Source of the DNA: Bryum argenteum
Taxonomy: Eukaryota > Streptophyta > Bryopsida > Bryales > Bryaceae
Direction: 5' to 3'
DNA: 64,000 nt
Assembly: GCA_037043015.1 (NCBI GenBank)
Contig: CM073330.1
Span: 6,962,012-7,026,011, forward strand
Shown here: piece after piece, positions 12,730 through 64,000 of the stretch
Numbering within the stretch: the first letter of the stretch is position 1
How the letters are laid out: each line of letters opens with the position of its first letter
Translations under genes and position numbers: made by a program
Notes under the pieces: model-generated
Seen by the model: only the letters and a program-made list of their open reading frames with translations
Told to the model about the DNA's origin: nothing
The model's database searches: none

Positions 12730-14712
12730 AAACGACGATGCCCACTCTGATGGGAACCATGCGGCCGACGATTCAATGCCACAACAACAATCGTGTTCCT
12801 CTTTCTCTCATCCAACTCCGCCCGTTGTTTTACAATTCCTTGTCTCTTGGTCCTCAAAAACACAAAACTTTAGCTCTATTAGATTCGGGAGCATCTACTT
12901 GTTTTTTAGATGAAGAATTTGCTAAGCGCCACAAGATTCGTCTAGTACGTAAGTCCAAACTCATTTTATGTAGAGGTGATAGATGGACGACCTTTATTGT
13001 CCGGCGAAAGTCACCCATGAATCGGTACCTATAGAGGTGGCGTTTAAGGACCATAGTAGTTACGTCGTTTTTAATGTCATTAGAACCCCGTCAAAAACCT
13101 GTCATCCTAGGTCTCTCTTGGTTAGAACAACATAACCCTACCATAGATTGGAAGTTGCGGAAAATGACTTTTTCCAAAGAACATTCCAAGAGCCAACCTA
13201 GTAGACATCCCAAGATAGGGAAACCATTGTTTATTGGAGCAAGGGCGTTAAATACGATCATCCAAAGAAGCGACTGTTTTTGTCATCTATCTATGCAAAT
13301 TTCAACTAGCACGGAGAAGAGTTCGACGGCAAGCATACCAGAGCAATACAAGGATTTTGAGGACGTGTTTCAGAAGAAGAACGCGGACATACTACCGGAG
13401 CATCGGCCATACGACTGCGCCATAGACCTGCAAGAAGGAGCACAACCGCCTTTTGGCCCAATCTACAATCTCTCAAACGGAGTTAGCGGAGTCATGAAAG
13501 TACATTGACGAGAATCTAGCGAAGAACTTCATTCGTCATTCAAAGTCGCCAGCTGGGGCACCGATCTTGTTTGTAAAGAAGAAGGATGGCTCCTTACGAA
13601 TGTGCGTGGACTATCGAGGCCTCAACAAGGTAACTAAGAAAAATCGTTACCCGTTACCCTTGATTTCTGGTCTCTTGGAGCAGCTCGGGCGTGCAAAGAT
13701 CTTTACAAAAATTGATCTGAGGGGAGCTTACAACCTCGTACGGATCAAGGAAGGAGACGAGTGGAAGACAGCGTTCCGTACAAGGTATGGTCATTTTGAA
13801 TATAATGTCATGCCTTTTGGCCTTACGAATGCTCCGGCTGTTTTCCAACACATGATGAATGACATCTTTCGGGAGCACCTTGACGACTTTGTTGTCATCT
13901 ATCTGGATGAGATCCTGATATTTTCCAAAAACGAAAAAGAGCACGAGAAGCACGTTCGTTTGGTCCTTGAGAAACTACGAGAACGAGGACTCTACGCCAA
14001 GTTGGAGAAATGCCTATTCCATCAAACCGAGATGGAGTTTTTAGGGTTCATTGCAACTACAGACGGCTTGAAGATGGACCCTAAGAAGGTGAAAGCAATT
14101 GTATCATGGGAGGTTCCGAAGACGGTTAGAGACGTACAATGTTTTCTTGGATTTGCTAACTTCTATCGAATCTTCATCAAGAATTATTCTCGAGTCGCTG
14201 CTCCACTCACTCGGTTGACTTATAAGGACAAGCTCGAATGGGGACCTCAAGCAGAAAAGGCATTCCAAGACCTCAAGATGGCATTTATCACAGCTCCAAT
14301 CTTGATACATCCTGACTTTACAAAGGCCTTCTATTTGGAGACCGATGCTTCTGATTTTGCTTTGGGAGCCGTACTTTCACAGATGGACGTGGACGGGAAG
14401 CTTCATCCAGTGGCGTTCTATTCTCGAAAGTTTTCTGCTGCTGAAATCAATTATGAAATCCACGATAAGGAACTTTTTGCCATAGTAGATTCCTTCCAAG
14501 AGTGGCGACACTTTCTCGAAGGCGCTGCACATCCAGTGACCGTATACGCGGATCACAAGAATTTGGAGTACTTTATGTCGGCTCGAGTCTTGAATCGACG
14601 TCAAGCTCGGTGGAATATGTCGTTGTCACGATTTGACTTTGTTATTACCTATCGGCCTGGGAAGCAACAAGGACTATCCGATGCCTTATCGAGAGATCGT
14701 ATCCGCGCCTAA
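12730..14712 (+). pseudogene. pol: Protease, reverse transcriptase and RNase H of chromovirus 1
   Basis: The protease active site LLDSGAST is at about 12880-12900, with frame changes near 13030, 13070 and 13500. Reverse transcriptase (from about 13390; one frame 13567-14712) shows [32 protein letters not shown] and [13 protein letters not shown]. The catalytic box reads YLDE at 13900-13911 instead of YLDD, so a catalytic aspartate is replaced. RNase H follows ([26 protein letters not shown]) and ends at 14712. Confidence 0.85.
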
Positions 14713-16239
14713 AGTGGAGAAGCGGCGTTTGATCAACAATGTACCACATTGCTTTGAAACCGAGCATTTTAGAATTTGCGCTCTTTCATGCCAATCGATA
14801 CGGACTTCCTTAACTTAGAATCGTCTGCGACAATTGAAGATTCTCAGTAGCCCTCGAGATCAAGAAGCGTGCTGATAATGACAAGTTCAAGGTGGAGGGA
14901 GATCTTTTGTACTTTGAAGAGCGACTGTATATTCCTAAGGGACGAACACGACTTCGAGTCCTCCAATCACGCCATGACTTTCCAGCTGCAGGACATTTTG
15001 GATTACAACAAGACATTGGAGCTTATTTCGCGAGACTTCTGGTGGCCCCAAATGTGGAAGGATGTGAAGGAGTTTGTTCTTTCTTGTGATATTTGTTCAA
15101 GGTCGAAGAACCCTCGGCATCGCCCCTATGGACTTTTGCAGCCATTGCCTATCCCGCATCGACCATGGTCTTCAGTTTCCATGGATTTCATTACGGACCT
15201 GCCGCCTTCAAACTCGTTTGACAGCATCTTTGTTGTGGTAGATCGGCTGACGAAGATGGCGCATTTTGTTACTTGCAAGAAGACATCGTCGAGCGAAGAT
15301 ACAGCAAGACTCTTTCTTGATAATGTATATCGTTATCACGGCTTGCCAGATGATATTGTGTCGGATCGCGGAACCCAGTTCGTCTCCAAGTTCTGGAAAT
15401 CTCTATTTGAGATATTGAAGGTGGATATCAAGCTTTCTTTGGCATTTCATCCTCAAACCGACGGACAGACGGAACGGGTGAATCAAGTATTGGAGCAGTA
15501 TCTACGTTGCACCATCAACTATCAGCAAGACGATTGGATCGAGTATCTACCGCTTGCCGAGTTCGCCTACAACAACACTATTCATGCGTCGACCCAACAA
15601 ACACCATTCTTTGCCAACTACGGATACCACCCGAAGCTTGATTTATGGAATTCAGTGGCCAATAACAACCCAACAGCAGAAGATTTTGCGAAGCAGCTAT
15701 CGGAACTTCAAGCAACGCTGAGACTTCAATTGCAAACTGCCCAAGAGTTGTACAAGGCGTCCGCAGATAAATTTCGGAATGAGGCACCTACTTTCAAGAT
15801 CGGAGATAAAGTATGGCTGCTTCGACGGAATATCAAGACCAAGCGGCCGTGTGATAAGTTGGACTATCGAAGATTGGGACCATTTGCCATCCAGAAACAA
15901 ATCAATCCAGTGGCGTATCGGTTGGAGTTACCAGCTACTATGAAGGTACATCCAGTCTTCCACGTGTCTTTATTGGAACCTTATCGAGAGTCGACTTTTC
16001 CGGGAAGAGTGCGAGGGCCGCCACCTAGTATCGAAATTGAGAACCACGAGGAATATGAGGTGGATAAGGTACTGGATTCACGGCGCAGAAGGGGAAACTT
16101 GGAGTATTTTGTGCATTGGAGCGGATACGACATCAATGAAAGAACGTGGGAACATGCCGAAAATCTTGTAAATGCGCCGGAAAAGGTACAGGAATTTCAT
16201 CAACGATATCCTCATAAACCTAAGCCTTTCCGACGATAA
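14713..16239 (+). CDS. pol: Integrase and chromodomain of chromovirus 1
   Basis: One frame covers 14869-16239 after a short frame break; the zinc-binding histidines (HDFPAAGHFG, about 14970-15000) lie in another frame from the cysteines CDICSRSK. The catalytic triad is visible: Asp in SMDFITDL, Asp in VSDRGTQF, Glu in DGQTERVNQ. A GPF-type C-terminal domain (RRLGPFAIQKQI, HPVFHVSLLEPY) is followed by a chromodomain at about 16049-16200 (EYEVDKVLDSRRRRGNLEYF, HWSGYDINERTWE), which probably steers integration to particular chromatin marks. The end at 16239 is clean. Confidence 0.88.
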
Positions 16240-24427: not shown

Positions 24428-26062
24428 ATGACTCGAGGGCAGACGGGTGAGCCAAGTGGAAGTCGAGTTACCCGGGCAGCCAGGAGAAGAGCTACAGCCG
24501 AGATCGAGCAGCTCGCACAAGCTCGCGAATTTGCTTACGAAGAGGAGGATATCCACTACGCATCCCCTCTTGAGGAGGTAGTCGTCCCGGTTGCGGTAGG
24601 GGTGATTCCAGTACCAGCACCCCCATCCGAGAGCGACGCACCGAGCTCCCCTCCGGGAAGCGAAGGACCGCCCAGTCCGGGCCGAGTCAACCCCGGACCC
24701 ATGGACCCTAACCCCATCCTTCCGTTGCGTCGCGCTCCACTCACCCGGTTAAAAATACGGCCGCTTCGCGGTGATGGTGGTGGCAAGGACGCGTGGGCGA
24801 TTGGGTCGAGGAGTTCGTGGCCACCGCGATGCTAACTGAAGATCCGGAGTCCGGACTCCGTGTCTTTTCCGGGTTGCTAAAGGAAAGCGTTGAAGTGGTA
24901 CAATGATGTACTGCGGATGTGAAGGCTAATCGGGATCACCGAGGATAGCCTTCCTACATGCTTTCCGGGAAGCCGGAGGAGAGGCTCGGGCTCTGATGCA
25001 ACTCGGGAAAGTCCGGAAGCGCGAGTACGAGTCCGTCAGGAAGTACGGGCAGAGGGTGAAAGCCCTCATGAACAAGGTGGCCTTCGACATCGCCCCTATG
25101 GTAGCCGTCCGGTGGTACGTGGGAGGGCTACCGGAGGATATGTCCTTCCGCATCCGGAGAAGCAAACCGGAAACGCTCCGAAGAAGCCATGGATGCCGCC
25201 CGGATTACGAGGACTCCGCTCAAGCCCTCCGTAGCAGCCGCAGGAAGGGGAAGGATAAGAAGAAGGAGAAGGGTAAGAAGAAGAAGGACACTGACTCGGA
25301 CAGTTCCGCGGGTAGCGACGACCCGGACTCGAACGACCCGGATAGCTCGGAGAGCGGGAGGAGAGCCAAACCGGAGAAGGCCAAGAGTTCAAAGAAATCT
25401 AGTTCGCCACGGTCAAGGTGAAGGTTGAGAAGGAAGATGGTCTCAAGAAAGTCCTGCGGAGCTCGGGCTATCAAGGTGAACATGGCCGAACTCCGAGTGG
25501 CCGCAAAAATCCTCCGACGCAGAGGGCTAACGTGTGGTGCTCCAAGTGCAAGGAGTACGGACACAACCCCACGGAGTGCCCCAATACGTCTACCCGGAGA
25601 TCCTCGAAATGGATCACCCCGGGCCGGGTCGATACGTGTTGGCCGAGGAGGAAGAGGAACCGGAAGAGGAGGATGTGGTTACCTGTGCCTGTGTTCATGC
25701 GGGATATGGGCGTGGCCGAGTGTCACCCCGCGTTCAGAGGCGGGTCGTACCCGGCCGCCCCTGAAAGTCTCTACCCGGGCAATCATCCGGGCAGCCCCTC
25801 ACCGCACCTACCGACTACGCTCATCCATTACCGATGCGGGAGAAGAGGGCATTATGCCAGTGGCTGCGACGTACCTGACGTCGAGCCCGGTGCCCCGAAG
25901 AACTTACCCTGTCAGGGTTGCCACGAATACGGACATAACCTCGAGGGTTGTCCGAAGAAGCCCCCTCCGAAGGTCATCTACAAGTCTGTGCAGACCCCTC
26001 CGCGTTCTCAGTCCGGCCTCAACTACGGTTCCACGGCCGGCATAGAGAACCCGGATAAATGA
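24428..26062 (+). pseudogene. gag: gag, internal copy 1 (frameshifted)
   Basis: ATG 24428 begins MTRGQTGEPSGSRVTR, then a Pro/Ser-rich region (to about 24770). The capsid-like part (LGKVRKREYESVRKYGQRV and KVAFDIAPMVAVRW, frame 24996-25421) follows after frame changes. A Lys/Ser/Asp-rich linker (about 25240-25410) leads to three zinc knuckles: CSKCKEYGHNPTEC, a copy missing the first Cys (YRCGRRGHYASGC) and CQGCHEYGHNLEGC, ending at 26062. The knuckles would bind genomic RNA. At least three frame shifts prevent a single product. Confidence 0.75.
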
Positions 26063-26071
26063 GGGTGCGAG

Positions 26072-28524
26072 GTGGAGCTACCCGGCGAACAGGAGGCCGC
26101 AGTCAATAAAGTCTCCACGCGTAGCTCCACCCAGGAAAAGAACAACACAGGCTCGAGGCGACAGAAGAAGGCGATCCGGGAGGCAAACCGGAAAGCACAA
26201 GAAGATGAGGAACCCGGGCAGGAAGAGGAAGACGAAGAGCCTACCCGGGTAGAGCTCCCAACACCACCCCTGGCAGACGCTGAAAAAGGGGTGGAACCCA
26301 CCAAGCTTGATCGTGACATCAGTGACGAGGTCAGGGCGGACCTTGCCGCAACCCGGGCAGACCCGGACCGCAGGGTTGTCCATTTCCAGGACAACCCTGT
26401 CGTGATCAAACCCGGACCCCAAGTGAGGGTTGATGAGTATGATATCCTGCAAGACATCAAGGACACGCAGGCCAATGTGACTATCGGGCAGCTTCTCCAT
26501 GATAATGCCAATTATCAGAAGACTGTCCGAGAAGCCTGGATTCAACGACGAAAGAAGAGATATAAGCTTCCCTCGGTGGCTGTGAACTTTGCGCAAGTTG
26601 AAGATTTCGGCGCACCCGAGCTGCAGGTGGAGGTGGATGGCTGCATCATCCACGATGTACCAGTGGATGGTGGGTCCGGGGTTAACCTGATGTTAGAGGA
26701 CACGGCCCACGACCTTGGATACACTACCCTAGAAACCACCCAGTTGGTCCTTCGCATGGCTGACCAATCCCGGGTAGCCCCGGTGGGGAGGCTTTCCAGG
26801 GTTCCCACCATCATAGGGGGAGTAACTTACCCCCTGAACTTTGTCATTATCCGGGTAGCAACCGGGCGACCCTTCCGAATGCTTCTAGGTCGGCCCTGGC
26901 TCTACATGGCCCGGGTAATAGTGGACTGGGGCGAGAAAGAATTCCGGGTGGGAAAGCGGCCAACCCTCATCATCCCCTGGATGCATTCCGCCCACGAAGG
27001 CGAGACACACGAATCCGACGGCTACACCACAGGGTGGTCGGACACGGAGGAATCCAACACGCAGGCCAGCTACCTGGTGGGTGAATTCTCCGGCCTGGTA
27101 GAGAGGGACTTTGAATTCCCGGATTCTGTGACGGAGGAAGGGCGGGAGCTTGCTGCGGATGAGGAGGTCGAGGATAGGGCGGAGATGGACGACAGATCCC
27201 TTGGGGAATCATGCGTGGCCCTATCCGAGAAATGGATACGAAAGCAGCTCACCGACCCCGCTGGACAGCCCTGTCGCCTCAACGGGGGAGGAGTTATTCC
27301 CTGGGGAAACCTTGGGATAACTCCGGAGGAGGCGGAGCCCGAGCGGATCAAAGGTGTCGTCTCACCTAAGGATTTTGAGGAGATCGAGGCTAAACCCGGA
27401 AAGAAGTTTTTCCTGGGCAAGACCCTGACTGCCCGGGAAAAGGGCGAGTACAGCACCTTGCTGACCGGGTTTGCCGATGTGTTCGCTTGGGCACCCACGG
27501 ACCTTCGGGGGATACCTCCGCAACTAGGAGAGCACCAAATCGACCTAGTCGAGGGAGCTAGCCCGGTTCGCCAGCGACAGTATCGGCTTAACCCGAAGTA
27601 CTCCCTGATGGTGAAGGAGGAGATCGACCGGCTACTGGAGGCCGGATTCATCTACCCGGTTAATAACACGGAGTGGGTGTCCCCGATTGTGGTGGTACCG
27701 AAGAAGACCGGGGCGGACGGGAAGGTGAAGATCCGGGTTTGCCAGGACTTCCGTAAGCTCAACGCCGCCACCAAGAAGGATTACTTCCCGCTCCCGTTTA
27801 CCGACATTATCCTGGATCATGTGGCCGGGCAGGAGCTTTACAGTTTCCTGGACGGGTTCTCCGGGTACAACCAGGTCTCCATCCGCGAAAGTGACCAGCT
27901 TAAAACGACTTTCACTACGGAATGGGGGACCTACGCGTTCAACCGGATGCCGTTCGGGTTGTGTAACGCCCCGGGCACCTTCCAGCTCGGCTCATGATGG
28001 ATATCTTCAAGGACTTTCTTCGGCATTTCCTAGAAGTATTCATTGATGATTTCGCAGTGTTCGGAAAGCGGGAGAATCACCTGGAGCACTTGCGGAAAAC
28101 CTTCCAGCGCTGTAGGGAGACCAACCTCAAGCTCCATCCCGGGAAATGTTTTTTCGGAATGGAGACCGGGTTGCTACTCGGGCACGTGGTGAGCCGGAGA
28201 GGACTGCAGGTGGATACGGACAAGGTCAGTGCTATCCTGACACTAGCCCCACCGCGGACGGTTAAGGAGGTTCGCGGATTCCTGGGATGCGTGGGATATT
28301 ACCGGCGATTCATCGACGGATATGCCCGGAAGGCTGCCCCGTTAACGGCCTTGCTCAAAAAGGATGAGCCCTTCCCGAAACCGGAGAGGCAAGCCGCTTT
28401 CGAGGACCTGGCGCGGCTAACCCGGGCACCTATCCTGGCACCACCTCCGGATTGGACCCGGGAATTCCATGTTACCCTGGACGCCTCGGGGTGGTGCCTA
28501 GGAGCCATCCCCGGCGGCGGATGA
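26072..28524 (+). pseudogene. pol: Protease and reverse transcriptase, internal copy 1
   Basis: One frame runs 26072-27997: a charged linker, a retropepsin-like domain with active-site VDGGSGVNLM (about 26663) and LLGRPWLY, then reverse transcriptase (FIYPVNNTEWVSPIVVVPKK, VCQDFRKLNAATKKDYFPLP, MPFGLCNAPGTFQ). An extra two bases at about 27986 (CAGCTCGG here, CAGCGG in copy 2) shift the frame; the polymerase resumes at 27994 with catalytic FIDDF (about 28039-28053) and the start of RNase H (VTLDASGWCLGA) to 28524. The two halves together keep the catalytic residues. Confidence 0.85.
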
Positions 28525-30293
28525 GCGAAGCGGGAGAGAGGCCTATCTACTACGCCACCGACGAATGATGAGTTCAAGGAAAAGGAATTACACCACCACC
28601 GAACGCGAGGCCCCGGGCCGTAGTCTATGCCCAAGAAGTTTCGGCACTATCTACTCGGATACCGGGTGGTCTTCCATACGGATCACGATTCGCTCAAATA
28701 TCCGGTGAATAAGCCGGACCTTTCCTGGACGGATAGCCCGTGGATTCTCCTGTTCACAGAGTTTACCTACGAGGTGATCGTCAAACCGGGTAGGGCAAAT
28801 GCCAATGCCGACTACTTGTCCAGGGATGCGAGGCGAGCCGCCCTGGAAGACATTTCCTCCCTGTTCCCCGACGAATTCCCGGATAGCCGGGTAGACCGGA
28901 AGTTCTTTGTCTTTGCAAGTGGAAGGCGAGGCCCCTTCCGAATTCAGCAGATCCGAGATTACCTCCCGACCCAGCCGCTACCCCCGAGACATGAACCGGG
29001 AAGAAAAGAGCGTCTTCCAACACCGTGTGGCTCCATACACTTTAATCAACGGAGTCCTGTTCGGATGGGAGCCGATGACAGTCGCGCCGCCGTGTTTGGA
29101 ACCCGGAGAGCGGAGGCGGCGGTGATGGAGGCTTTACACGCGGGAGATTCCGGAGGGCACCTAGCCGCCATGAGTACGGTTAACCGTATTAAGAGCGCAG
29201 GTATTGGTGGCCCTTCGTAATCCGGGATGTCCGCAATACGTCCAGTACGCGACCAATGCCAACGGACGGAGACAACCGGGTTTCGAACCACCGCCCCTCG
29301 ACTCCGATTTTTCCCTGCCCCTTTTGTCAAATGGGGAATCGACTTTGTCGGTCCGACGCCCCTATTACCAAAAACCGAAGCGCTACATCATACTCGCGAC
29401 CGACTACGCCACGAAGTGGGTAGAAGCCCGAGCAACCCGGGGAAATGACGCCAGGACAGCGGCATCGTTCCTGTTCGAGGAGATCATGATGCGGTTCGGC
29501 CATCCCCTGGAACTGGTCAGTGATCGAGGAGCGCACTTCATCAATGAGGTCATCGAGGACATCACCACCAAGTATGCGATCCGACACCGCAAGACAACCC
29601 CGTACAATCCCAAGGCCAACGGTCGAGCGGTCAAACGGCACCATCGGTAAAATGTTAAACAAGATGGTGTCCGCCCATAAGACTGATTGGGACCGGAAGC
29701 TTGCCTCCGCAGTCCACGCGTACAACACAGCGGAGAAAGCAACCACCGGAAAGACCCCGTACTTCATGGTCTTCGGCCAGGAGGCCATTCACGGAGTTGA
29801 GCTGGCGGTAGAAACTCACCGGGTTATGGCAACGAGGCTCGGAGAAGAGGGAGACGGCCAACCGGAGAGGTTACAAGCCATCGACGCCTTGGAGGAGGGC
29901 CGGGCAGAAGGTGTGGAGAGAAACCGGAAAGTGCAGGAGGATCGGAAGGAGAAGTATGATACAAGACTTCCCGGGGACCACGGAATCCGAGAAGGCGGCC
30001 TTGTGCTCCTGTACGACAGCCGCCATCAAAACTTCCCGGGTAAGCTACACACCCGCTGGATGGGCCCTTACCGGGTAGCCCAAGTGTTTCCCAACGGATC
30101 CCTCCAGTTGGAGGATTTACAGGGTAACCGCATGGATACGCGCGTGAACGGGTCGAGGGTGAAACAGTACCACCCAGAGGAGTTAACGGATGAGGAGGTT
30201 CTCGTCGAGGAGGAGGACGAACCTCCACAAAGACGAGTCCGAGTAATCATCGCGTTACGGGGTCCGAGTGTTCGCGAGGACGCTCAAAGATGA
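28525..30293 (+). pseudogene. pol: RNase H end and integrase, internal copy 1
   Basis: Fragments in several frames: RNase H end (HYLLGYRVVFHTDHDSLKY, NANADYLSRD), zinc-binding part (HAGDSGGHLA and DQCQR, about 29130-29270), core Asp in GIDFVGP (other frame) and Asp in VSDRGAHF (about 29518). The segment that should carry the catalytic Glu has lost 5 bases at about 29624 (GGTCGAGCGG against GGTCAGACTGAGCGG in copy 2). The C-terminal part reads openly to 30293 (TRWMGPYRVAQVFPNGS). No chromodomain follows. Confidence 0.8.
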
Positions 30294-51341: not shown

Positions 51342-51401
51342 AGACCTATCTTCAAAGTCCTGCATCCGAGCGTGTAAGACCGCAGAATCCCGAAGGTGAT
51401 G
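51342..51401 (+). pseudogene. Continuation of the 44634 gene between two insertions
   Basis: A 60-bp remnant: right target duplicate AGACCTATC (51342-51350) and then open coding sequence (SPASERVRPQNPEGD) in the frame that leaves the 5' part at 45787. It is cut at 51401 by the CACTA terminus. The 3' end of the gene would lie beyond the window. Confidence 0.55.
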
Positions 51402-51421
51402 CACTACTAGAAAAGGGTGTC
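51402..51421 (+). repeat. CACTA left terminal inverted repeat
   Basis: CACTACTAGAAAAGGGTGTC; the first 13 bases are the canonical plant CACTA end. The inverted partner is not in the window. Confidence 0.85.
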
Positions 51422-51459
51422 AATTCTGACCGGGTTTCTTGACGCAAAATCGACGTCTG

Positions 51460-52718
51460 ACTGCACCTGACGGCACTACATGTAGTCAGCCAACTAGTCG
51501 AGTACCTAGTCAGATCGGACACCCTTTTGGGATGACTACAGGCGTTCCCATAGGTTCGTTCCCGATGGAGTTTTTGAGACCTCGTTTGGGGGCTGCCCGG
51601 GCAGAGTGACGTGGCATAGTCATCGACTACGACGATCGTAAAACCCGTCGTCGCGATCACCATGTGAGGTGACGTGGAAATATGGCCACGTCAGCAGTGA
51701 CCAAATGAGGTGACGTGGAAATATGGCCACGTCAGCAGTGACCATGTGAGGTGACGTGGACATATGACTGTCTGTAGTCAGATTGGCTAGAATTGAGACA
51801 TGACTACTATTAGTCATAATATGCTGACAGTGTGTGACTAACCATAGTCACAATATAATATGAAACTGACTACATAGAGTCATCTTTGGTACGTATTCAT
51901 TGAAACGGTAGTCATGGGACTGACACCTTCTAGTCTTCACTTCGCATGTGAGGACTACTCATAGTCCACAGGATGACAATCTTTAGTCATCTTCTTGTGA
52001 ACTATGTTGTGTTTCCACGAATACCTGATGAGGTCTTTGATGCCTTCAATGACTATAAATAGTCGTGAATGTACATCTCAATAGTCAGTTAGTTAAGTAC
52101 TGCTAGTCAGTACTACGGGATGTTTAACTAGTAATTTATTTACATTTAGCACACAACACGACTACAGTTAGTCATATGATGGGTTCCAACTGTAGCTTAA
52201 AAGTTATCTTTTCGGAGCGAGAGTTGTGTCGCTGATGACTACGTGTAGACAGAGAGTTTCTAAATACTCTACAGAGGCTCACTACGAATAGTCATGTCAT
52301 CCAAAACATCTCTACAAATCCTGACTACATACAGTCATGGCAATGAAACAATGCAAGCTTTATGACTACATATAGTCATTCTCTCTGAATACAGTCACTA
52401 CGAATAGTCATGCATTCAACAACGGCACCAGCGGTATGAATATACCAAAACCATTACTTGTGTGGAAATGTTTGTGGACATTGACTAAGCATAGTCATAT
52501 CTACGAACACGAGACTATGTCATATGACTACAAATTGTCATATCCCTACATATACTGACTATGGTTAGTCATGGATTGCAAATATTGAGCTAGATAGGAT
52601 GACTATATGTCGTCACCGTTTCCGATTACAGTACTAGAGAGAATGACTATAGTCTACTAGTGATAGTCCGGTAGAATGGCTAGATATACGCCTGCGCACC
52701 TACGACTACACGAGAGCG
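51460..52718. repeat. CACTA subterminal repeat zone (TGACTANNNNTAGTCA)
   Basis: More than fifteen copies of GACTA and TAGTC arms around four or five variable bases (for example GACTACATATAGTC, GACTATGGTTAGTC), on average every 50-60 bp. Such clustered subterminal motifs are the binding sites of the element's own DNA-binding protein in En/Spm. A 41-42 bp tandem repeat with TGACGTGG and CCACGTCA arms is included at 51661-51770. Confidence 0.8.
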
Positions 52719-55383
52719 TCACGCCAGTTCGACAGCCTGGTTGAGGAATTCCAGAGGCCACAATATGTAGTTGTTTACTGCTTGCCCCATGTTTGTGATT
52801 GGAGGGTCGTCCATATTCACCGGTTCACAGAGCAGGTACGCATCGTTGTTGCTCTTTGTCACCTCCACGGTGGCCATTCCCTCCGGGATAGCCACACCAT
52901 GGAAATTGGATCCTTCCAGGTTAATAACCTTCCCAAAGCCGACTACCATAGCCTCTTCCCCTTCACCAACACCCTTGATTTCTACAACAGAGCCTCTGGT
53001 GATCCTCTCTCGCTGTGATGGGGCTTCCTCTTTTTGCCCGTCTGCCTGCATTCCATACAAACGTGATTACATATCATTAGACAAGCACGGACGATGACTA
53101 AAGATAGTCATACCGTCTCAAAACATGACTAGAGACCATCGCATTCCAGAGTCGCACATGACGTTTGACAAATGCAAACCTCATTACCACTGTTGTGCCC
53201 TTCTCGTCATGGGGCAGGACTTTCCACATCTCCGCCTCGGTACTGTCTTTCGCCACAATAGCTGGGTTCTTGAATCTCTTGGGCTTACTCCCCTTCTGTC
53301 GTGGCTGTTTCTCGAGGCCAACATCGGACCCCTTCTCTGTCGTCACCACCTGTTGCGCAGCAGCGGACGCCTTCTCCTTCCTTGTGTAAACTACCTTCTC
53401 TTTCTGTGAACGGTTCGTCTTGTGCTCACCCCCGCTAGTTTCGATTAGCTTTTGGACCTCGGTAGCCCTCTTCCTCTTCTCAGCGGCTGGACGAGTCTTC
53501 GGCGGAGAATTGGCAGTGTCGTCTGCTACCACTTCCTTCCCTTTCCTTCATTTAGTCTCGAGGACGTCGTCACTGTCTCCAGATTCCTGCTCATATCGGA
53601 AGAAAATAACCACATTGACTGTTGATAATCGAAAGGGGGGAGGGACATGTAAACTAATTTACTCATACTACGTGAAGTTGGTGACTGAAAATTGTCATTC
53701 AATGTGCGTGTATGACTACGATTAGTCATATCCCAAAAGTTTACCTCAAAGTTATTTCGTTCCTCCGATTGTTGTGTACTCAGCATCCCGCGGCGTGGCG
53801 TGGCGATGTTGTCGTCCTTGTCGTCCTGGTTTATATCTTCTACCATTTTTGTGTCCTCCTCTGCGACATGCTCCTATTCCCCCACACCGCCCAAGCACAC
53901 AAACCATGTTAGGGCAATCAGAAAGGAATAACATAAGTTCAACCTTCGTCACTTCTTCTTCACAAAATTCAATGGTAATATTAGAGTACTATGACTATGA
54001 CTACTTAGTACTACAGATGACTACGGATGACTATCCATAATCCTATGATGACTGTAGATACCTTCTCCGCGTCCGGTGCTAGAGTGGGCATGGCACTGAG
54101 TCCCTGCTGTAGAAGTGGAGGATGTGCAGATGCAACACTTGGAACCTTCAAATGTTCTAAGATCAATTTTAGGTTCGCCTCCATACCCTCCATGCGTGTC
54201 TCGATGTCCGGGTTACTTTGCTGCGCCACCTTTGACTGCTTCGAAGATGAAGAGCGATGTCTGCACATGCTTCCCATCTGGTCAGTTAGTTCGGGAGCCA
54301 AAGACTCCGAGTACGCCGCCTTCTTCGACGCCGCACGATTTCCCTTCAGCTTCTCCGCTTGCTTGATCTTTCCCTCTTCAGCAATCATCGTGGAGAGGTT
54401 GGCCCAATGCTCACTAGATATGTGCTGTGGCTTGCCCGTCCCCTTAAGCAATAATTTCTTCAATTCATATCGCTTCGTCTTCAACTGAGACCTCAATACT
54501 TGGTGAAAAGACTCCTCCGTGACATACCCAAGACCTCCCTCGTAATCAAAGGTGGAGTCCACCTTTTTCTTAATGGCAAGTAGCATCCGGGTGCTGTGAT
54601 GGTTGTAGTTGTCGACTGAGAAGTCCACATGCTGGGAATGACCTCGCAGGCAATCCAACCATTTCTTCTGGTGCTGACCGCAAGGCATGCCCTTCATGTC
54701 CACCTCGACTAGGTAGCGACGGCCACCATGGTCCTCTCGTTCGCGTGCCTCCTCCTCACAAGCTCGCTCTGCTGCTCGCCTCTTCTTGCGGTCCTGCGAA
54801 CAGGCCTTCGGGCGCTTACCGCTGAGGACTGCTTTCTGCTTCGCCTTCAGCTTCTTGATCTTCAGCGCAATGGCCAGTGCTACCATGTCGGGGTCCTCAT
54901 CTTCGGAGTCAAAGTCTGATGAAGACCGATTGGATACATTGGATGACGATGGCGGCGGAAAATGTGGTACAGGCTCCAACCAGTTGTGCTCCTCCCCATC
55001 ATCATAAAGCATTGCTGCCCGACTCATCTTCTTAGTTGCAGCAAGTGGATCGTCACGGGTTTTCTTCTTGCTGCCGCCCTTGGGGACCTTGAACCTCTTC
55101 GGAGATTCTGTATGCCGTTTCCCTTTCACCTGCCATTGGATGGGGTCCGTGGACTTCACCCTTTCCTGGTAGAGCATGACTAGCATTAGTGAGATTTTGT
55201 AAAAGGAATACTACAATTACTCACATTCTAGATTGGGAAAAGTGGCCTTTTCTGGATGCAGGATACACATGTACGAACCTTCGATTTTCGTTTCGAAGGG
55301 GCTGGACCTGCTGTTGCGTTGTCCAGCGCCTGTGTTGGTGCGGATTTCGGGGGAGGAGGACCCTTGGCGCTGGATTTCTGCAT
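52719..55383 (-). pseudogene. TNPA-like CACTA protein, five exons, one in-frame TGA
   Basis: Exons that keep frame with GT/AG borders: 55383-55279, 55165-54062, 53873-53745, 53586-53188 and 53045-52719, all introns phase 0, 687 codons. Exon 2 carries charged regions and a Transposase_24 (Ptta/En/Spm)-like segment (KKKVDSTFDYEGGLGYVTEE, HWANLSTMIAEEGK, KLKGNRAASKKAAYSES). Exon 5 ends with the domain usual at the C-terminus of plant CACTA second proteins (GVAIPEGMATVEV, AVNNYILWPLEFL; I believe catalogued as DUF8039). The likely role is binding the subterminal repeats. Exon 4 has an in-frame TGA at 53550-53548 where CGA would continue a basic run, so this copy may be inactive. An alternative start is ATG 55428. 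Confidence 0.72.
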
Positions 55384-55499
55384 CTCTCCGCAGAGAATCA
55401 GTAATGGCGTCTGCGCAACGGCAAACATTCTGCCATGGCCATAGAAGGCTTCGCAATGGTTGCCACCCCAGCTGCGGATGCGACTGTCTAAAGTTCTAG

Positions 55500-56041
55500 A
55501 GATAGTTCGTATACTACCTCTTAAGACATATGATGTGTTAAATGCCTATTACTAGTCAGATGCTTCGTGGAGATGACTAAATGTAGTAATTCAACGGGAA
55601 TCTATGACTAAACATAGTCATATGTGTAGCCTCACAGGACTGATTCGAGTACAAAATGGTTAGTATATGACTTTACTTAGTCATATAGAGAGAGTGATGA
55701 CTAGATGTAGTCCAATATTAAAAAGAAATTGCTCTCAATAGTCACGTTGGCAGGGTAGACGACTAAAGATAAAACAAGTCTAATGTGACTATACAATATC
55801 AGCTCGTAAAGACACGTTAGTAAAGCCTTGTCACAGAGTTATTAAAAACAACAAGCACGTATACGACAAGGCATGAGGGTATGTGATTGGAAACACGGAT
55901 TGTGCTGAAGTCAGAATAGTCAGGAAATCTGAGTAGTGATGGTCGGGTGTTAGGTCTAAAGTTAGGTTTTTGCAATATCGACGATAGGACTAGAAATTGT
56001 CATATGCGCGTTGTACATGACTGACGTAGTCACGAATTAAA
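55500..56041. other. Spacer between the two minus-strand CACTA genes
   Basis: No coding run. It holds further GACTA...TAGTC motifs (for example 55576-55590, 55603-55622, 55670-55684), so repeat sites continue between genes. Confidence 0.55.
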
Positions 56042-57849
56042 CTATTTCAAGACATCCGTGAGAGTGTTATCCTCCAACACAAGCCGACATTCCTCCTGCA
56101 GTTGAGCAGCCTTTTTCTGGATAGCAACGGACACTTCTAGCATTTCATGGAGCATGAACTGAATCTTAAAAACATTTATGTCTTTCTTTACTGCCCTCAT
56201 TTCCTCATCTACATTTGGCTCCATGTTACGTACCTTAGGTTTTGAGGGCGCTCTCTTTGCTGCTTCGACTGACTCTTTCTCGTCCACGTAAGAGTCAGAT
56301 GACGCCTCGTCCTCCTCAGATGACGTCGCCTCGTCCTCCTCAGATGACGTCGCCTCGTCCTCCGAAAGAAACTCTGCCTCCGTCTCCTCTTCTTCAGGCT
56401 CGGATTCGGACGCGTCCTTCTTGGACTCCCGATTCCTTCGAGCAGTACTTGTCGGCTGCTTCGATGTGATGCGACTAGACCTCCTCTGTGGACTCACAGC
56501 CTCCCTGGACTCTTGAAAAATGTCCGTTAATACTTTAGCCATCTCATGCAAGGCTACACCAGTGATTGGTGGCATTCTACCAATTCCTTGAAAAACCTCT
56601 TCTACGCAATTGTCAGGTAAATTTGCTACCATCCTCATTATCTTTTCTACCGAGGCACTATATTCAATGGTCATTGTTCCTGGAATTAGGCAAATATTAC
56701 TATTTACGTACGGGGAAGTAGTCTTCGGAGGAGATGTGGTGATTTCGGCAGCCGTAGTGAGGTTCTGAATACCCAACGACTTCAAAACGCGCTGGTTGAA
56801 CTCCACATTCTTATCGCGCGCGAGCTCGTACGGGTTAGGAGAGGGCGCCTTCTCCTTCTTTGTCTTCCCTCGCGCCTTCCTACGCTTTGCTGCAGAGTCG
56901 CTGTCGCTATCGGACAGGGACAGAATCTCCTCCTCCAGTGGCAGCGGAGTTTTTGAGCGGGAGGGCCTGACCGATAGCAGCACGCCAGGGACGACCTCCT
57001 TCTCCTTCGTTGCCGACCGCGTGGCTGGACGCCGTATCGGGGGCGTTTCGAGCGCCTTCTTCTTCTGTAAAATGAAAAAATTAGTCACATTCTAGATTGG
57101 GATGACTAACATTAGTCATACAAATACAAGCACATGGCTATGACAGGAAAGTACTTCGTGATCATTCAAACCCTAAGAGTACTTGAACTGTTCGGCGGGC
57201 AAAATTGTGGGCGGCCGGCGATGCAGGTTACACAGGTTACACGAACCTTTGAACTAGGCTTCAAAGGGGCTGGATGCGGTGCTGCTTCCTCGGCGCCGGT
57301 TGCTTCCTTCTCCGCGCCGCTAGATTCCTCCTCCTCCGACCCGCTTGCTTCCTTCTCCGCGCTTACTGCCTTCTCCTTCGACGTGCCCTTGTCTTCTTTC
57401 TCCGCCGCCTCTCCGTCGGATGCCTCCTCTTTGGACGCCTCCTCCTCCGACGCTACCTTCTCTTCAGACCCCTCCGCTGAAGTAGCGTTATCTGACGCTG
57501 CGTTCTCTTCGGACTCCTCTCCCGACTGCTCCTTCACCTCGTCCTCCTCATCCGATCCTTCCTTCGAGGCTGAGTTCTCCGATCCTTCCTCACTGGCTAA
57601 CTTCTCCGACACCCCTTCCTCCGAGCTATTGTCCGATCGTTCCTCCGCCTCGCTCTCCTTGTCCGACCCTTCTACCGATGCTGCCACCTCCGCGCCCTCT
57701 GCCACCTCCGTGCCCTCTGCCACCTCCGCGCCCTCTGCCACCTCCTTCTCCGTGTTGTTCCTCTTGTCACTCTTATCTTCCTCACTATCAGTCCTCTCAA
57801 TCTCTCGATCAGGTGGTGAAGGAAGGAGAGCAGACTTCCTAGGCGCCAT
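56042..57849 (-). CDS. Acidic CACTA-borne protein of unknown function, two exons
   Basis: Exon 1 57849-57247 (MAPRKSALLPSPPDREIERT, then a long Glu/Ser/Ala-rich acidic tract) and exon 2 57064-56042 join in phase 0 through GT/AG borders (AAG|GTTCGT, TTTACAG|AAG), giving 541 residues. Exon 2 has SDSDSDSAAKRRKARGKTKK-like nuclear signals, a short folded-looking part (KNVEFNQRVLKSLGIQNL, MRMVANLPDNCVEEVFQGI), a second acidic block and a helical C-terminus (MLHEMLEVSVAIQKKAAQLQ). No domain recognised. Exon 1's end and the flanking intron resemble those of the neighbouring TNPA-like gene, so the two may have arisen by local duplication. Confidence 0.65.
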
Positions 57850-59359
57850 AGCTCCACACAAGAGCTCTACAAATTACAGCAATTGAACAAGGGAGAATAG
57901 AAAACTCATTGGAGGCCATTTTGTCAACTTCGGGTTCTTCAAGGTATGTGGGTGGAGAGCTATCATGAATTTCCAACTTGATTAAGAGAGAGTGGCCTCG
58001 GTGATGCACAGGAGTGGAGAGGTTGTGCAATTGAGTGAGATATCATTTCGGACATGAAATTCAAAATTTGGCGGCTGGGTGCAATAAATGATCACCGCCG
58101 CCGTTTACTAGTCAGTCAATTTCTACTCATGACTAGTCCTAGTCATATCTTTGTCCAGATTTTTTCAATTGCTTTTTCTATTACTAAATATTTTATGTCA
58201 TCATCTCCTGGACAGCCATGTGACCGCTTATTTGCATCAAATCGAACAGGTGGAGTCCTTCACCTACGAGCAAAAGACATTCTTCAATCTTCAAGGGTCC
58301 GTGCTTTCTCAGGTAAACGCATAATTTTCTTTCACTACGTAAACAGTCTATTCAGAAAATGGATAGTTTTGTTTTCTAAAAAGAAAGACAATGAACTTTA
58401 ATATGTTCGCAGCCCTTTCATTGTAAAGATGAAGTTTGGTCCTTTTAGAATTTTGTCTGACCATTCATACCCATCTGCGTTTTTTTGTGATTGTATCAGA
58501 TATGAATTTTCTTTCTCATTCGTGATAGAGGTCATAAGCAAAACTGAACACATGGTTGGTTTTTTAGTCATGCTCTTTCAGGACAAGACTAATATTATCA
58601 TAGAATATACGTAACTTCGTAATCCATTTCGATGTCCCAGAAATTTTGATAGCTTTGGATTTCTATACTGTTCACAATGTGAGAGGCCGAATATTTCTGC
58701 GAGTCTGATGCTGGAATGAAGTACAAGTAGAAGGTCAAACTCTGGCGCACGTTTCCATTGCATAGACCAATAGGTTTGTTGTTATTCAGATGCAATTTTC
58801 TTTGTACATTCATGGTACAATTTTATTATATCTTAAAACACATGCGAGAATTTTTGGATTTAATAATTCCTAATATGATTGCATGTGAAACTGAATTGCA
58901 TAAGTTGCTATGATCAGGAGTGGCCTCGGTGATGCACAGCAGTGCAGTGGCCTCGGTGATGCAAAGAAGCAAAGTTTCTTACTTATAGCGATTCGCCCAT
59001 ATGTATAGCTTTCACCCATATGAATATCACGCATTAACCTCCTCTAACGCACCGGATATATGACTTACTATAGTCGTCACGTTTTTGTGCAAGACTATGG
59101 GTAGTCAGATAATGACTATGGGTAGTCAGATAATGACTACGAATGGTCCTATGCTACACGGATACGTCTAACTATAGTCAGAAGGATGCAAGACATTACT
59201 AAGTATAGTCACATGTTACGTGCAGATGACAGCCGCGGACTTAGATGCTTCGATGACATTCTTCCACTTCTTATGTTTTGTGTTCAGATTCTTTCACTAC
59301 AGTTACTGAGGTACGAAAAATATGTATGCATGCAGTATAGGCGGAGATCGCAAGTTCAT
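57850..59359. other. Divergent spacer between CACTA genes
   Basis: About 1.5 kb between the acidic gene (-) and the transposase gene (+), presumably holding both promoters. It contains three copies of GTGGCCTCGGTGATGCA (about 57989, 58921, 58946) and GACTA...TAGTC motifs at about 58110-58146 and 59055-59215. No convincing gene inside. Confidence 0.5.
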
Positions 59360-62300
59360 ATGGATCCAGCATCGCGTGAAGATCTTCTGCACTTGCAGTT
59401 GTGGGACATCGAAGAGAGAGAAGCGGACCTACGTGGTCTAGAAAGTTACCGTTGCCCATGTAAGAAATGCATGGGTGGAAGAGTGGTTTTTAGAAAAACC
59501 ATCCGAAGACACCTACGGAAGTACAAGCGCGATCCAGTTTTTAAGACATCCATTCTGGTACGGTACTCATGACTGTTCTTAATTGATGTTGGTGTCAAAT
59601 GTGTGGAGATCCATAATGATTGCATTACTCTTTTGATACGTTCGTGTAGGAAATACAAAGACCTGTTGTATTGGCCGCAGCAATTGCCGCATTAAAGTTC
59701 ATAATTTTGAATCCTCTCCCGCTTGCAACGAGCGGACAAGGTACTTCGTCTCCCAAGAACAAAGAGACTCGTCATATTGGTGGCACAGATGGAGCCACTC
59801 TGCAATTCAGCACAGGCCCCATCCCAAAGCTCCACGTCTTCACATTCTGGAAGAGGAAGTGGCAGGTGAGAGTGTCAACACATCCGCACATGGGATGGGG
59901 CCTGTATGCTATGGAGCCAGCAAAATTAGGCGAAGAGTTGTTGCCCTTTGTTGGGAATGTTTTCTCAGAGGCTGAGGTCCTTCAAAAGTGTGAGCAGGAC
60001 CCAAGATTTCTGAAATACGTAATACGCATGAAGAAAAACACGTACCTCGATGGAGATGTGTTGAAAGGAAATGTAGCAGGATTTATAAACAGTTCAATTG
60101 GACGAGAGCACATACAGAATGTGATTTGGGAATATGTATCCTTGCCTACCCCATGGAATCCGTATACTTGGGGGTATATCATGACTGTAGCAGCGCGTGA
60201 CATTGAAGTGGGGGAGGAACTTTTCACATCTTACCCTGTAAACTGATATGTCTTTCAGAGGTTGTTAATGAATAGGGTATCAGCACAGGAATTTGTACTC
60301 TTATACATCGTTTGATGACTCCTGGTATTGATCACACCTGAGTGAGTGAATGCACTCATATGTTTTGTACATCTGACCAGTCTCACAATGGTCATGTTCG
60401 TGATCTAAGTGTGCAACCACCACTTTTCTCGTCGATGACTACTTGTAGTCCTCCTTTTCATACATATGACTAAATTTAGTCATATTGCCTTAGACATCTG
60501 GACCGTTTGCCGACTAGGAATATTCAGTTGTTTATCATGTATGGCGTGGTTATGTTCTGCCCAAACCGATAAAATATAAGTCACGTTCGTAAGTGATGGG
60601 GAACAATTCCTCTACTCAAATCCATGGCTCTGACCATTACATCTGTTCCGAACAGCAGTAGATCCTTTTTACATCGATATATGTATGCCTTACAAACTCA
60701 TTCGAGTGTCTAAAATTTTATTGTGCAGTCTAGTGCTACAGGCGAGAGTGACGATGATCGTGAAGACCTTCACGAACCAAACGAAACTCACGAGGGCAAC
60801 ACAACAATGCCAACTGCTTCAGAACATTTCGACGTTGCCAGGATGATTACGGAGTGCCTTGGCAGATACGATTGTGTCCCTCCACCTGATGACGACTCTG
60901 CGGATGAGGACGAAGTTGACGTTGCTGTTGATGACGACAACCTCCCTGACATATACCCAGATGACTTCAATCACATATCAAGTGTTCCACTTTACGAAGG
61001 ATGTGAGACGAAGCTATTGGTGGCGGTGCTCCTAATTTTCAATTGTTTCACAGTACACGGTGTATCAAACACGTGTGCAGATGAACTATTGAACATTATC
61101 AGTGAACTTCTCCCAAAGGGCAACAAACTTCCCAAATCGCACTTGAAAGGGAATAAACTCATACGGACACTAGGGTTGAATTACAAGCTAATCCATACTT
61201 GCCGAAACGGTTGTTGTTTGTTCCGAGGGGACTTGGCCGAGGCGTTGACGTGCCCACTATGTGGACAACAACGATACGCATCGGAGAATAGTGGGCGGCC
61301 GGTGAAGATTTTGAGGCACTTCCCACTTATACCCCGACTACTGCGAATGTATCGATGTAAGCAGATAGCAGAGTTGAACAAGTGGCACACAACACGGAAA
61401 GACATATATGGCAATATGGAGTGTGTACCGGACTCAAAAGCTTGGAAACACATCAACGCTTTATATCCGGAATTCGCAGCTGACGAGAGGAATGTACGAT
61501 TAGCTCTGGCCACAGATGGAGTGAATCCTTTTTCAAACCAGTCACTCAGCCACTCAACGTGGCCAGTGATACTATTAAATTACAACCTACCTCCTTGGCT
61601 AGTAACGAAACGGTTCTTTCTAATGCTAGCTCTCCTCATCCCAGGTAAATAGTTGTCATGTCACTCCGACCACGTTGTTATTCACATTTCTGCAGTTAGG
61701 CGTATGGTGAAGTCAATTGATTTATATTAGTCGTACTCTTGAAACATATGCCTACGATTAGTCATATCTACAATGACAGTGACTAATAGTTGGTCATACC
61801 CTGAAACTAGAGTGACGACAAAATGTCATTTCCTGAAAGACCATGACTGAAAGTAGTTATACTCTGATTTAAGTTCCCCAACATTAGTTATATCTAGAAA
61901 TAACAAGACCAGCCGCAGTAGGATTATAACACAGCAGGACGAATGTTACACTTGTTCTTAAAGCAGTCGACAAACATTAGCAATTTTCTTAAAGCCGCAG
62001 GTTTTCTCTATCACTAAAGTTTATGATGCTTGCTTTCCTCATTCCAGGGAAGGAGAGTGTGACATCATCGAATATAGATGTGTATCTGGCCCCTCTTATC
62101 GAAGAGCTGCAGCAACTTTGGGAGGGTGTAAATGCCGTGGATGTCTCCGCCGACAGTCACAACACCAATTTCACACTCAGAGCAATGTTGATGTGGTGCA
62201 TCCACGATTACCCAGCATACGGTCTTGTTTCCGGGCAAGTGACAAAGGGGTACAAAGGCTGTCTTGAATGCGGCCCTAACGTTAGTACTCGTCGATCAGC

Positions 62301-63849
62301 TTCACTGGGAAAGAATGTTTACCTCGGACATCGGAGGTACTTGCAGAGGAATCATCCGTATCGGCGACTGAGAAGAGCATTTGATGGCACGGAGGAAATA
62401 AGAGCACCCCCAAGGTCTCTGAATGGACAAGATATTGTGCGCCATGCTAAAGCTAGGCAGAGGTGGCTAGCAGCCAGTGATGAAAATAGAGAAGGAGGCG
62501 AGAGTGATCCAGTGCACCAGAGCGGAGTGAAGAGGCTATCAGTTCTTTACAATCTTCCATATTGGCAAGTAAGCATGCTTACGCTGTAAACCACGTTTCT
62601 GTTGTTACTCATGATATGAAAATGTTTTTTCGTGGGGTAGTCAGATTTTGAGAACACAACGACTACCTGTTGTCATGTACTGATAGATCGTGACTAACAG
62701 TAGTCATACATTGAGACCATAGGACTAACAGCAGTCATATGCGGAGAACGCATGAGTAGGACTCCTCATTCTCAGCGAAAGCAGGACTAACAGTGGTCTT
62801 ACTCTGGAACATGCATGTTAGTAATATTAGTTATGTTCTGACGTAGGATGTGTTCTTCATCGCAGACTCTCATAATCAGGCATGTGCTGGATCCCATGCA
62901 CTGCGAAAAGAATCTCTGCGAAAACATCATGAGGACAATATGGGGATTGAAAGACACACTCAAAGTCCGTCTAGACATGAAGGAGGCCAATATACGCCCC
63001 GAACTGCACCCTCAACACGTCGGGAGTGATACCATTGTACTACCGGCTGCTCCTTACGTTCTTACGAAGGTGGAGAAGGCGACATTCATCAACACTATCC
63101 GGAACTTAAAGACTCCCAGCCATTACGTAGGGCAGTTATCGAAGAGGATCACCCCTGATGGAGACCTTCGTGGGCTTAAGTCACATGACTACCACATCAT
63201 GATGCAACAGGTCCTCCCTTTGTGTCTCCGGACATTACTAACAAAAGACGTTCGGGCAGCCATCATTCGGATATGCAGGGTGTTTGTGCGACTATGTGAG
63301 AAGTCTGTGGATCCGTCAACAATGTCCGATTTGGTGGAGGAAACAGCTGTGACCATGTGCATGATGGAAAAAGTATTTCCACCGTCATTTTTCGATGTCA
63401 TGTCACATCTTCCAATCCACCTAGTGCAACAATTAGCCATTTGTGGCCCGGTGCATACACGCTGGATGTACCCCGTGGAACGGTATCTCAAAACCTTAAA
63501 GGGATATGTACGGCAACGAGCGAAACCGGAGGGCTCGATGGCACGAGGGTATATCATGGAGGAGACGCTCGGATTCTGTACGGAGTACATGAAGAATTGG
63601 AGCATGACGACACGGCGTGTGTGGGACGACAAAGAGGAGCCTACTATGAATGATGAAGTTCTAGAGGGGAACGGGAGACGGCGCTTACTCTCTTCAGAAC
63701 TGCAGCAATGGATCCATGATTTTGTGATGAACAACGCTGAAATCATCGTAGACTACAGAGAGTATGCACCAAATCCTCTCTTGGAACTGCATGGAACTTA
63801 CGCTCACAGTACGGAAACAATTCTGTACAGGTTATCGTGCAAAAGATGA
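59360..63849 (+). CDS. CACTA transposase TNP2 fused to a SET-like domain
   Basis: Five exons keep one frame: 59360-59557, 59650-60237, 60729-61644, 62048-62568, 62866-63849, about 1069 residues. Exon 1 is a transposase-associated domain (ESYRCPCKKCMGG). Exon 2 is SET-like: VSTHPHMGWGLYAMEP (the GxG region), GNVAGFINSSIGREHIQNV (place of the NHSC motif, here NSS), VAARDIEVGEELFTSYP (place of the catalytic-Tyr motif). Exon 3 has an acidic linker and TNP2 (HTCRNGCCLFRGDLAEALTC, LALATDGVNPFSNQSLSHS with the first catalytic Asp, NYNLPPWL). Exon 4 gives CIHDYPAYGLVSGQ (second Asp) and exon 5 HVLDPMHCEKNLCEN and DUF4218-like GLKSHDYHIMMQQVLP, HTRWMYPVERYLKTLKGYVR. Introns 1, 2 and 4 are phase 0, intron 3 is phase 1. 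If intron 2 is retained, translation stops at 60246 after the SET part. Further exons beyond 63849 are possible. Confidence 0.82.
59867..60237 (+). other. SET-like domain segment within exon 2
   Basis: Spans the residues from VRVSTHPHMGWG to EELFTSYP, about 124 residues, the usual size of a core SET fold. The substrate-side NHSC is NSSI and the D/E-Y motif is S-Y, so catalytic competence is uncertain. No pre-SET or post-SET cysteine clusters are seen. Confidence 0.7.
61621..62052 (+). other. Intron 3 of the transposase with duplicated exon edge
   Basis: The last bases of exon 3 (ATGCTAGCTCTCCTCATCCC + AGGTAA) and the last bases of intron 3 plus exon 4 start (ATGCTTGCTTTCCTCATTCC + AGGGAA) are near-identical; both encode LA.LIPGK. 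The spliced message keeps only one copy. Confidence 0.7.
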
Positions 63850-64000
63850 CTACGCGTAGTCATTACTTGAAGGGGAACATCCATGCGTAGTCGTATTAGC
63901 CCCTAGTTTTATTTTGGAATGTGGTCATGCGTCGGCTAAGGAGTATGTCTGCACATAGTCATTCTTCCGCTGCGGAATGACTACGCATAGTCATAGGCCA
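63850..64000. repeat. Start of the right subterminal repeat zone
   Basis: Several GACTACGCGTAGTC- and GACTACGCATAGTC-type motifs within 150 bp after the transposase stop, up to the window edge. Confidence 0.65.

Follow-up and report, generated by a model that had tools for sequence, protein, structure and literature searches.

The 64,000-nucleotide window analysed here (C10:6962012-7026011 of the Bryum argenteum genome) carries a CACTA transposon whose TNP2-type transposase gene contains a complete exon encoding a SET domain. This exon lies in frame between an N-terminal zinc-finger-like segment and the acidic linker that leads into the transposase domain. An earlier note, made from the sequence of this stretch, had proposed a SET module inside a CACTA TNP2 transposase, and the proposal was borne out by profile and fold searches, by junctions kept in four lineages of copies (A to D), by relatives without the SET exon, by co-divergence and by purifying selection. 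The identity of the SET domain, its position, phase and conservation, its co-divergence with the transposase and the selection acting on it are established.

The earlier reading of a complete SET-fold exon at 59650-60237 agrees with the profile search, in which residues 82-195 of the exon product matched SET (PF00856) with an E value of 5.7e-10 and 40 bits against a curated cut-off of 22.4 (the query was the exon product plus two extra codons ahead of the stop). The same profile scored over its cut-off in lineages A-D and in the copy L021. Downstream, Transposase_21 was matched by exons 3 and 4 (E values of 6.2e-31 and 7.7e-45) and DUF4218 by exon 5 (1.5e-39), all in Pfam. The description of exon 1 as transposase-associated stands in part, as the CxxC...H likeness is present but the Transpos_assoc profile reached only 21.4 bits, under its 27.7-bit cut-off. 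The closest solved structures by sequence were those of SET1/COMPASS, ASH1L, MLL1 and NSD, and a Foldseek search with the second of two AlphaFold models (pLDDT 60.6) placed MLL1 at the top; in each fold search with this model, all 50 entries listed contain a SET enzyme according to their titles. The likeness to H3K4 and H3K36 enzymes is not close enough for a substrate to be named. Thirteen SET exons, all picked from open copies and 46-98% identical to that of the window, were aligned for the catalytic residues. GWG, Tyr123, Asn141, Ser148, Ser149, Asn157 and Tyr195 were invariant in every row; GWG we take, from its role in SET enzymes, to be an S-adenosylmethionine-binding-type motif. One copy outside this alignment, L013, has GWS in its place and Lys for Asn147.

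The GT/AG borders and phase 0 that had been noted on either side of the SET exon can be read in the sequence (TAG/GAA upstream and CCT/GTAAAC downstream, the slash marking the exon border) and are kept in all four lineages. For intron 1, GT...TAG and phase 0 were found throughout. For intron 2, the junctions are CCT/GTAAAC ... GCAG/TCT in lineage A, CAT/GTGAAT ... GTAG/AGG in lineage B, CGA/GTAAAT ... GCAG/GAT in lineage C, where the donor lies nine codons later than in lineage A, and AGG/GTTGGG or AGG/GTCGGG ... TCAG/GAT in lineage D. No alignment was obtained between the intron 2 sequences of clade A and those of the other lineages, and the phase is nonetheless kept. As had also been foreseen, the in-frame stop at 60246 falls within this intron, and the next exon opens in phase 0.

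Further genomic copies of the SET exon, for which the earlier note had suggested a search, were found in number. In the genome searched (258.8 Mb in 25 contigs), 93 matches merged into 73 loci, and nine copies besides that of the window carry a full-length or nearly full-length, stop-free SET exon of 91-98% identity, which is more than chance would give. Twenty-four loci, the window copy included (L009-L032), were read; by tblastn, exon 1 was located upstream of the SET exon in 23 and exon 3 downstream in 22, with SET identities down to 46%. L020 has neither exon, and in L031 the TNP2 part is mostly deleted, with the start of exon 3 still readable. Four further decayed copies (L036-L039) belong to lineages C and D. 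The count was also taken from the transposase side: of 596 Transposase_21 candidates 150 were scored, and 21 of these have a SET match lying 0.8-1.2 kb upstream in the same orientation; the other 129 have none. The figure of 21 is a lower bound, since lineage A has introns within the TNP2 domain and no lineage A copy is among the 21, and since the single-sequence SET search may miss distant members.

Three genes without SET, hand-picked from those 129 (L033-L035), hold a CPCxxC...HL segment, the acidic linker and TNP2 within one unbroken exon. When compared with the fused protein by BLASTP, the L033 reading frame aligned to residues 5-62 (E 1.5e-6) and 262-741 (E 3e-130) and that of L035 to residues 1-59 and 316-741, in both cases skipping SET. 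Because these three genes keep all the flanking parts in a single exon, the SET exon was probably inserted into an older zinc finger-linker-TNP2 frame. A TNP2 tree was made from 22 SET-bearing rows plus L033-L035; the SET-bearing rows all fall on one side relative to the three others, and a SET tree of 23 rows agrees with it on the clades: A, B, C and D each form one group, and both trees place L021 with A. On the basis of three outgroup rows, a single acquisition of the SET exon is favoured. Between clade A and L021, at a synonymous distance of about 1, the ratio of nonsynonymous to synonymous substitution rates (dN/dS) was 0.26 over SET and 0.14 over exons 3-5, from 10 pairs in each case that share one branch and are not independent; deeper pairs were mostly saturated. 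These comparisons support purifying selection on a SET domain that co-diverges with its transposase.

The repeated unit, as judged by alignment of copies, extends well outside 59360-63849, the interval given in the earlier note; the alignment and the sequence together delimit a CACTA element that is complete and spans about 15.2 kb, from 51402 to 66576, the 3' part of which lies past the window end. Its 3' end, GAATTGACACCCTTTTCTATTAGTG, is the inverted repeat of the 5' end, CACTACTAGAAAAGGGTGTCAATTC, with one mismatch, and the 3-bp duplication ATG stands on both flanks. L011 and L019 have the same or a near-identical 3' repeat with different flanks. CACTA terminal inverted repeats (TIRs), a 3-bp target site duplication (TSD), a TNP2-type transposase and subterminal repeat motifs thus all occur in the window copy, as in CACTA (En/Spm) elements. 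The motif TGACTA or TAGTCA has a density of 15 per kb at one end of the element and 22 per kb at the other, compared with 0.27 per kb in window positions 1-51401; within the transposase gene it reaches 5-22 per kb in introns 2-5, is missing from intron 1 and occurs once in exons. It was also observed that the palindrome TGACTA-N4-TAGTCA is dense across the non-coding parts of the element (51402-64000), nearly missing from exons and rare outside the element, and that tandem units of about 115 bp lie near the 3' end in L009, corresponding to window coordinates 65121-66230, beyond the window. A profile search of the three opposite-strand reading frames in Table 1 returned no family over its cut-off; they are a candidate for the second gene of the element, TNPA-like in CACTA (En/Spm) elements, and are possibly exons of a single gene.

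On balance we consider it probable that these copies encode a zinc finger-SET-TNP2-DUF4218 fusion which stems from a SET exon acquired once and which acts on chromatin against silencing. A CACTA lineage would have gained, probably once, a phase 0-0 SET exon, placed after the zinc-finger segment at the N-terminus of TNP2 and ahead of its acidic linker, and splicing of both introns, which we infer from the conserved junctions and not from transcripts, would yield the fusion. The transposase parts would most likely carry the SET domain to the element ends, the introns and the target, where it may methylate a lysine of nearby histones or of the transposase itself, and this methylation would favour expression or mobility over silencing. 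If the transposase binds TGACTA or TAGTCA, the SET domain would be spread across the whole element. More tentatively, the transposase may write its own chromatin mark: with SET and the domains for DNA binding and cutting joined on one polypeptide, histones at the ends, the intron motif arrays and the target would be methylated, and recognition of the element and reversal of silencing would be one act. That the SET exon is kept at the same place in several old branches suggests that the transposase may edit chromatin where it acts.

A number of observations weigh against such an active fusion. The donor of intron 2 is weak in lineage D; L021 has CT for GT at the donor after SET, with the acceptor retained; small changes have shifted the intron 2 junctions in L019 and L028, and a deletion has removed most of intron 2 and the start of exon 3 in L012. 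In the four lineages an in-frame stop stands 3 to 16 codons past Tyr195, so that a short protein of zinc finger and SET alone could be made. In place of the NHS(C) motif, Ser stands for His in all 13 aligned rows (NSS in 12, ISS in L030) with no Cys after it, and the Asn preceding this Ser is also altered in L013 and L030. Neither a Pre-SET match nor a cysteine cluster of that kind ahead of SET, as in SUV39/G9a-type enzymes, was found, and the aligned SET exons contain no post-SET and no post-SET cysteines. With the NHS His replaced and both accessory modules lacking, activity may have been lost, although methyltransferase activity of the module remains plausible. Confidence is low in both AlphaFold models (pLDDT 51 and 61), and many copies of the SET exon are decayed. 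Among the copies of clade A, SET has a median dN/dS of 0.57 (45 pairs), above the 0.46 of exons 3-5 (44 pairs), levels expected of copies decaying after insertion.

The in-frame stops and the lost donor of L021 would also suit a gene that makes two products from one transcript, with intron 2 often retained to give a zinc finger-SET protein of about 264 residues ending at 60246, and TNP2 produced through skipping of the SET exon, whose symmetric phase 0-0 would preserve the frame, or by initiation at an internal site. Such an arrangement would be similar to the two-protein scheme of En/Spm and could coexist with the fusion. We nevertheless regard it as unlikely, as a GT one residue past Tyr195 in lineages A, B and D, and nine codons later in C, is paired each time with a phase-0 acceptor, and zinc finger and TNP2 are joined by one frame in the relatives without SET. 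Capture of host DNA is frequent in plant CACTA elements, and it could be argued from the many decayed copies that the SET exon is a host fragment carried along without function; this is already disfavoured, since four lineages keep the exon in one position and phase with its conserved residues and since dN/dS to L021 is 0.26, and it appears highly improbable.

The Ser in place of the NHS His and the missing post-SET cysteines would agree, in turn, with a pseudo-enzyme. Such a SET domain would transfer no methyl groups; it would bind to histone tails or to a partner and direct integration or the assembly of a complex. Catalytically inactive SET proteins do exist, SET-24 being one according to the accessible text of PMC12886896. 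Such a role for the module seems rather improbable given the invariance of GWG, Tyr123, Asn141 and Tyr195 across rows as distant as 46% identity (GWS of L013 apart).

Table 1. Coordinates of the SET-bearing CACTA element and its transposase gene, counted from the first letter of the window.
Feature	Position	Strand	Basis or remark
TSD ATG	51399..51401		sequence; partner ATG from 66577, outside window
5' TIR CACTACTAGAAAAGGGTGTCAATTC	51402..51426	+	sequence; begins CACTA
Three long reading frames, 54011-55210, 56042-57091 and 57166-57873	54011..57873	-	inside element
Exon 1: ATG and Transpos_assoc-type CxxC...H zinc-finger-like segment; 66 codons; phase 0 donor	59360..59557	+	below Pfam cut-off
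Intron 1, phase 0; GT at 59558, TAG acceptor	59558..59649	+	borders kept in four lineages
SET exon, 196 codons, symmetric phase 0-0	59650..60237	+	profile and junctions
SET motif GWG, residues 82-84	59893..59901	+	13 of 13 rows; GWS in L013
GNVAGFINSS, counterpart of xxxRFINHS, Ser for His	60067..60096	+	alignment
Tyr195, counterpart of last Tyr in SET1 EELTYDY	60232..60234	+	invariant, 13 rows
Intron 2, phase 0; contains in-frame TGA 60244-60246	60238..60728	+	sequence, junctions
Exon 3: acidic linker and start of Transposase_21; opens in phase 0	60729..61644	+	profile, junctions
Exon 4: remainder of Transposase_21	62048..62568	+	profile, junctions
Exon 5: DUF4218; predicted phase-2 donor to further exon at 64113 outside window	62866..63830	+	profile, copy comparison
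Predicted intron 5 (to 64112, outside window); GT start, TGACTA palindromes, TGA at 63849	63831..64000	+	sequence

The gene does not end at 63849, where the earlier note had placed its stop: that TGA belongs to a TGACTA-N4-TAGTCA palindrome in a predicted intron, and a further exon follows from 64113 (donor at 63831, acceptor before 64113), pieces of which are present in 13 of the 14 loci tested (none in L018). The two halves of this last exon are in different frames in the window copy and in one frame in at least seven others (L010, L015, L016, L017, L019, L021 and L025), so that the C-terminus of the window copy is probably broken. The further exon of L017 gave no Pfam match; it may resemble DUF4216. 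Intron 3 (61645-62047) is missing from lineage B, C and D copies, in which tblastn places exons 3 and 4 some 7-10 bp from each other (e.g. L023, L027 and L030), and intron 4 (62569-62865) is shorter in lineages B and C (e.g. L023 and L027), which suggests intron gain or loss within the transposase. Elsewhere in the window, 13035-16239 and 24930-30293 contain what appear by eye to be Ty3-type retrotransposon reading frames, the first with a chromodomain-like stretch at its end.

A second repeated SET family (G000), of the G9a/SUV39 type with pre-SET, was observed in the same genome. Grouped by length, with three read (L040-L042), 77 of 150 PF00856 matches scored are 345-363 nt long and were assigned to it. 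For 58 of them, a repeated reading frame of unclassified type lies within 6 kb in tail-to-tail orientation (e.g. L040:2317-3381 with L040:5269-6000 on the minus strand; for this comparison 150 of 344 candidates were scored and 112 places used). The frame looks transposase-like by eye (DFAENY, SDG) and found neither a Pfam nor a PDB match. This family is probably another SET-bearing transposon group, unrelated to the CACTA one.

With typical CACTA (En/Spm) elements bearing TNP2, the present element shares the CACTA ends, the 3-bp duplication, Transposase_21, DUF4218 and dense subterminal repeats; it differs in the intron-flanked SET exon inside the transposase frame. VANDAL anti-silencing proteins, which may have in common with it the role of an element-coded counter to silencing, are not known to contain a SET domain. 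They are mentioned in the accessible text of PMC12730594, which also describes TET/JBP-encoding fungal transposons, EnSpm among them, which likewise carry an enzyme for epigenetic marks, in their case acting on DNA methylation, and are proposed to evade silencing. The same text, citing Kojima and Jurka (2014, Repbase Reports), reports that HarbingerS and MuDR elements of Phytophthora carry SET methyltransferase genes; these too are DNA transposons with SET, although of other superfamilies and hosts and described as SET genes. Assignment to HarbingerS was rejected, the element having Transposase_21 and CACTA ends instead of a Harbinger-type transposase. SETMAR/Metnase, in the part of PMC8616336 available, also joins SET and transposase in one protein, but is a host gene of primates in which SET is followed by a mariner transposase, whereas here SET lies inside the transposase of a mobile multicopy element. 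A SETMAR-type partner was likewise rejected, the partner being Transposase_21 and not mariner. In full-text searches of the open literature, judged by titles and the beginnings of abstracts and with Repbase itself and most subscription journals outside their scope, no in-frame SET-TNP2 fusion was recognised. SET-bearing transposons therefore have precedents, and, as far as the literature searched goes, the in-frame CACTA variant seems to be new.

The element joins a cutting enzyme and a domain of the histone-mark-writer type in one conserved mobile protein, within a major plant-type transposon superfamily. The second SET-bearing repeat family hints that the defence of this host may favour such acquisitions, and the occurrence of several lineages of the fusion in one genome would permit a direct test of whether a transposon brings its own anti-silencing tool.

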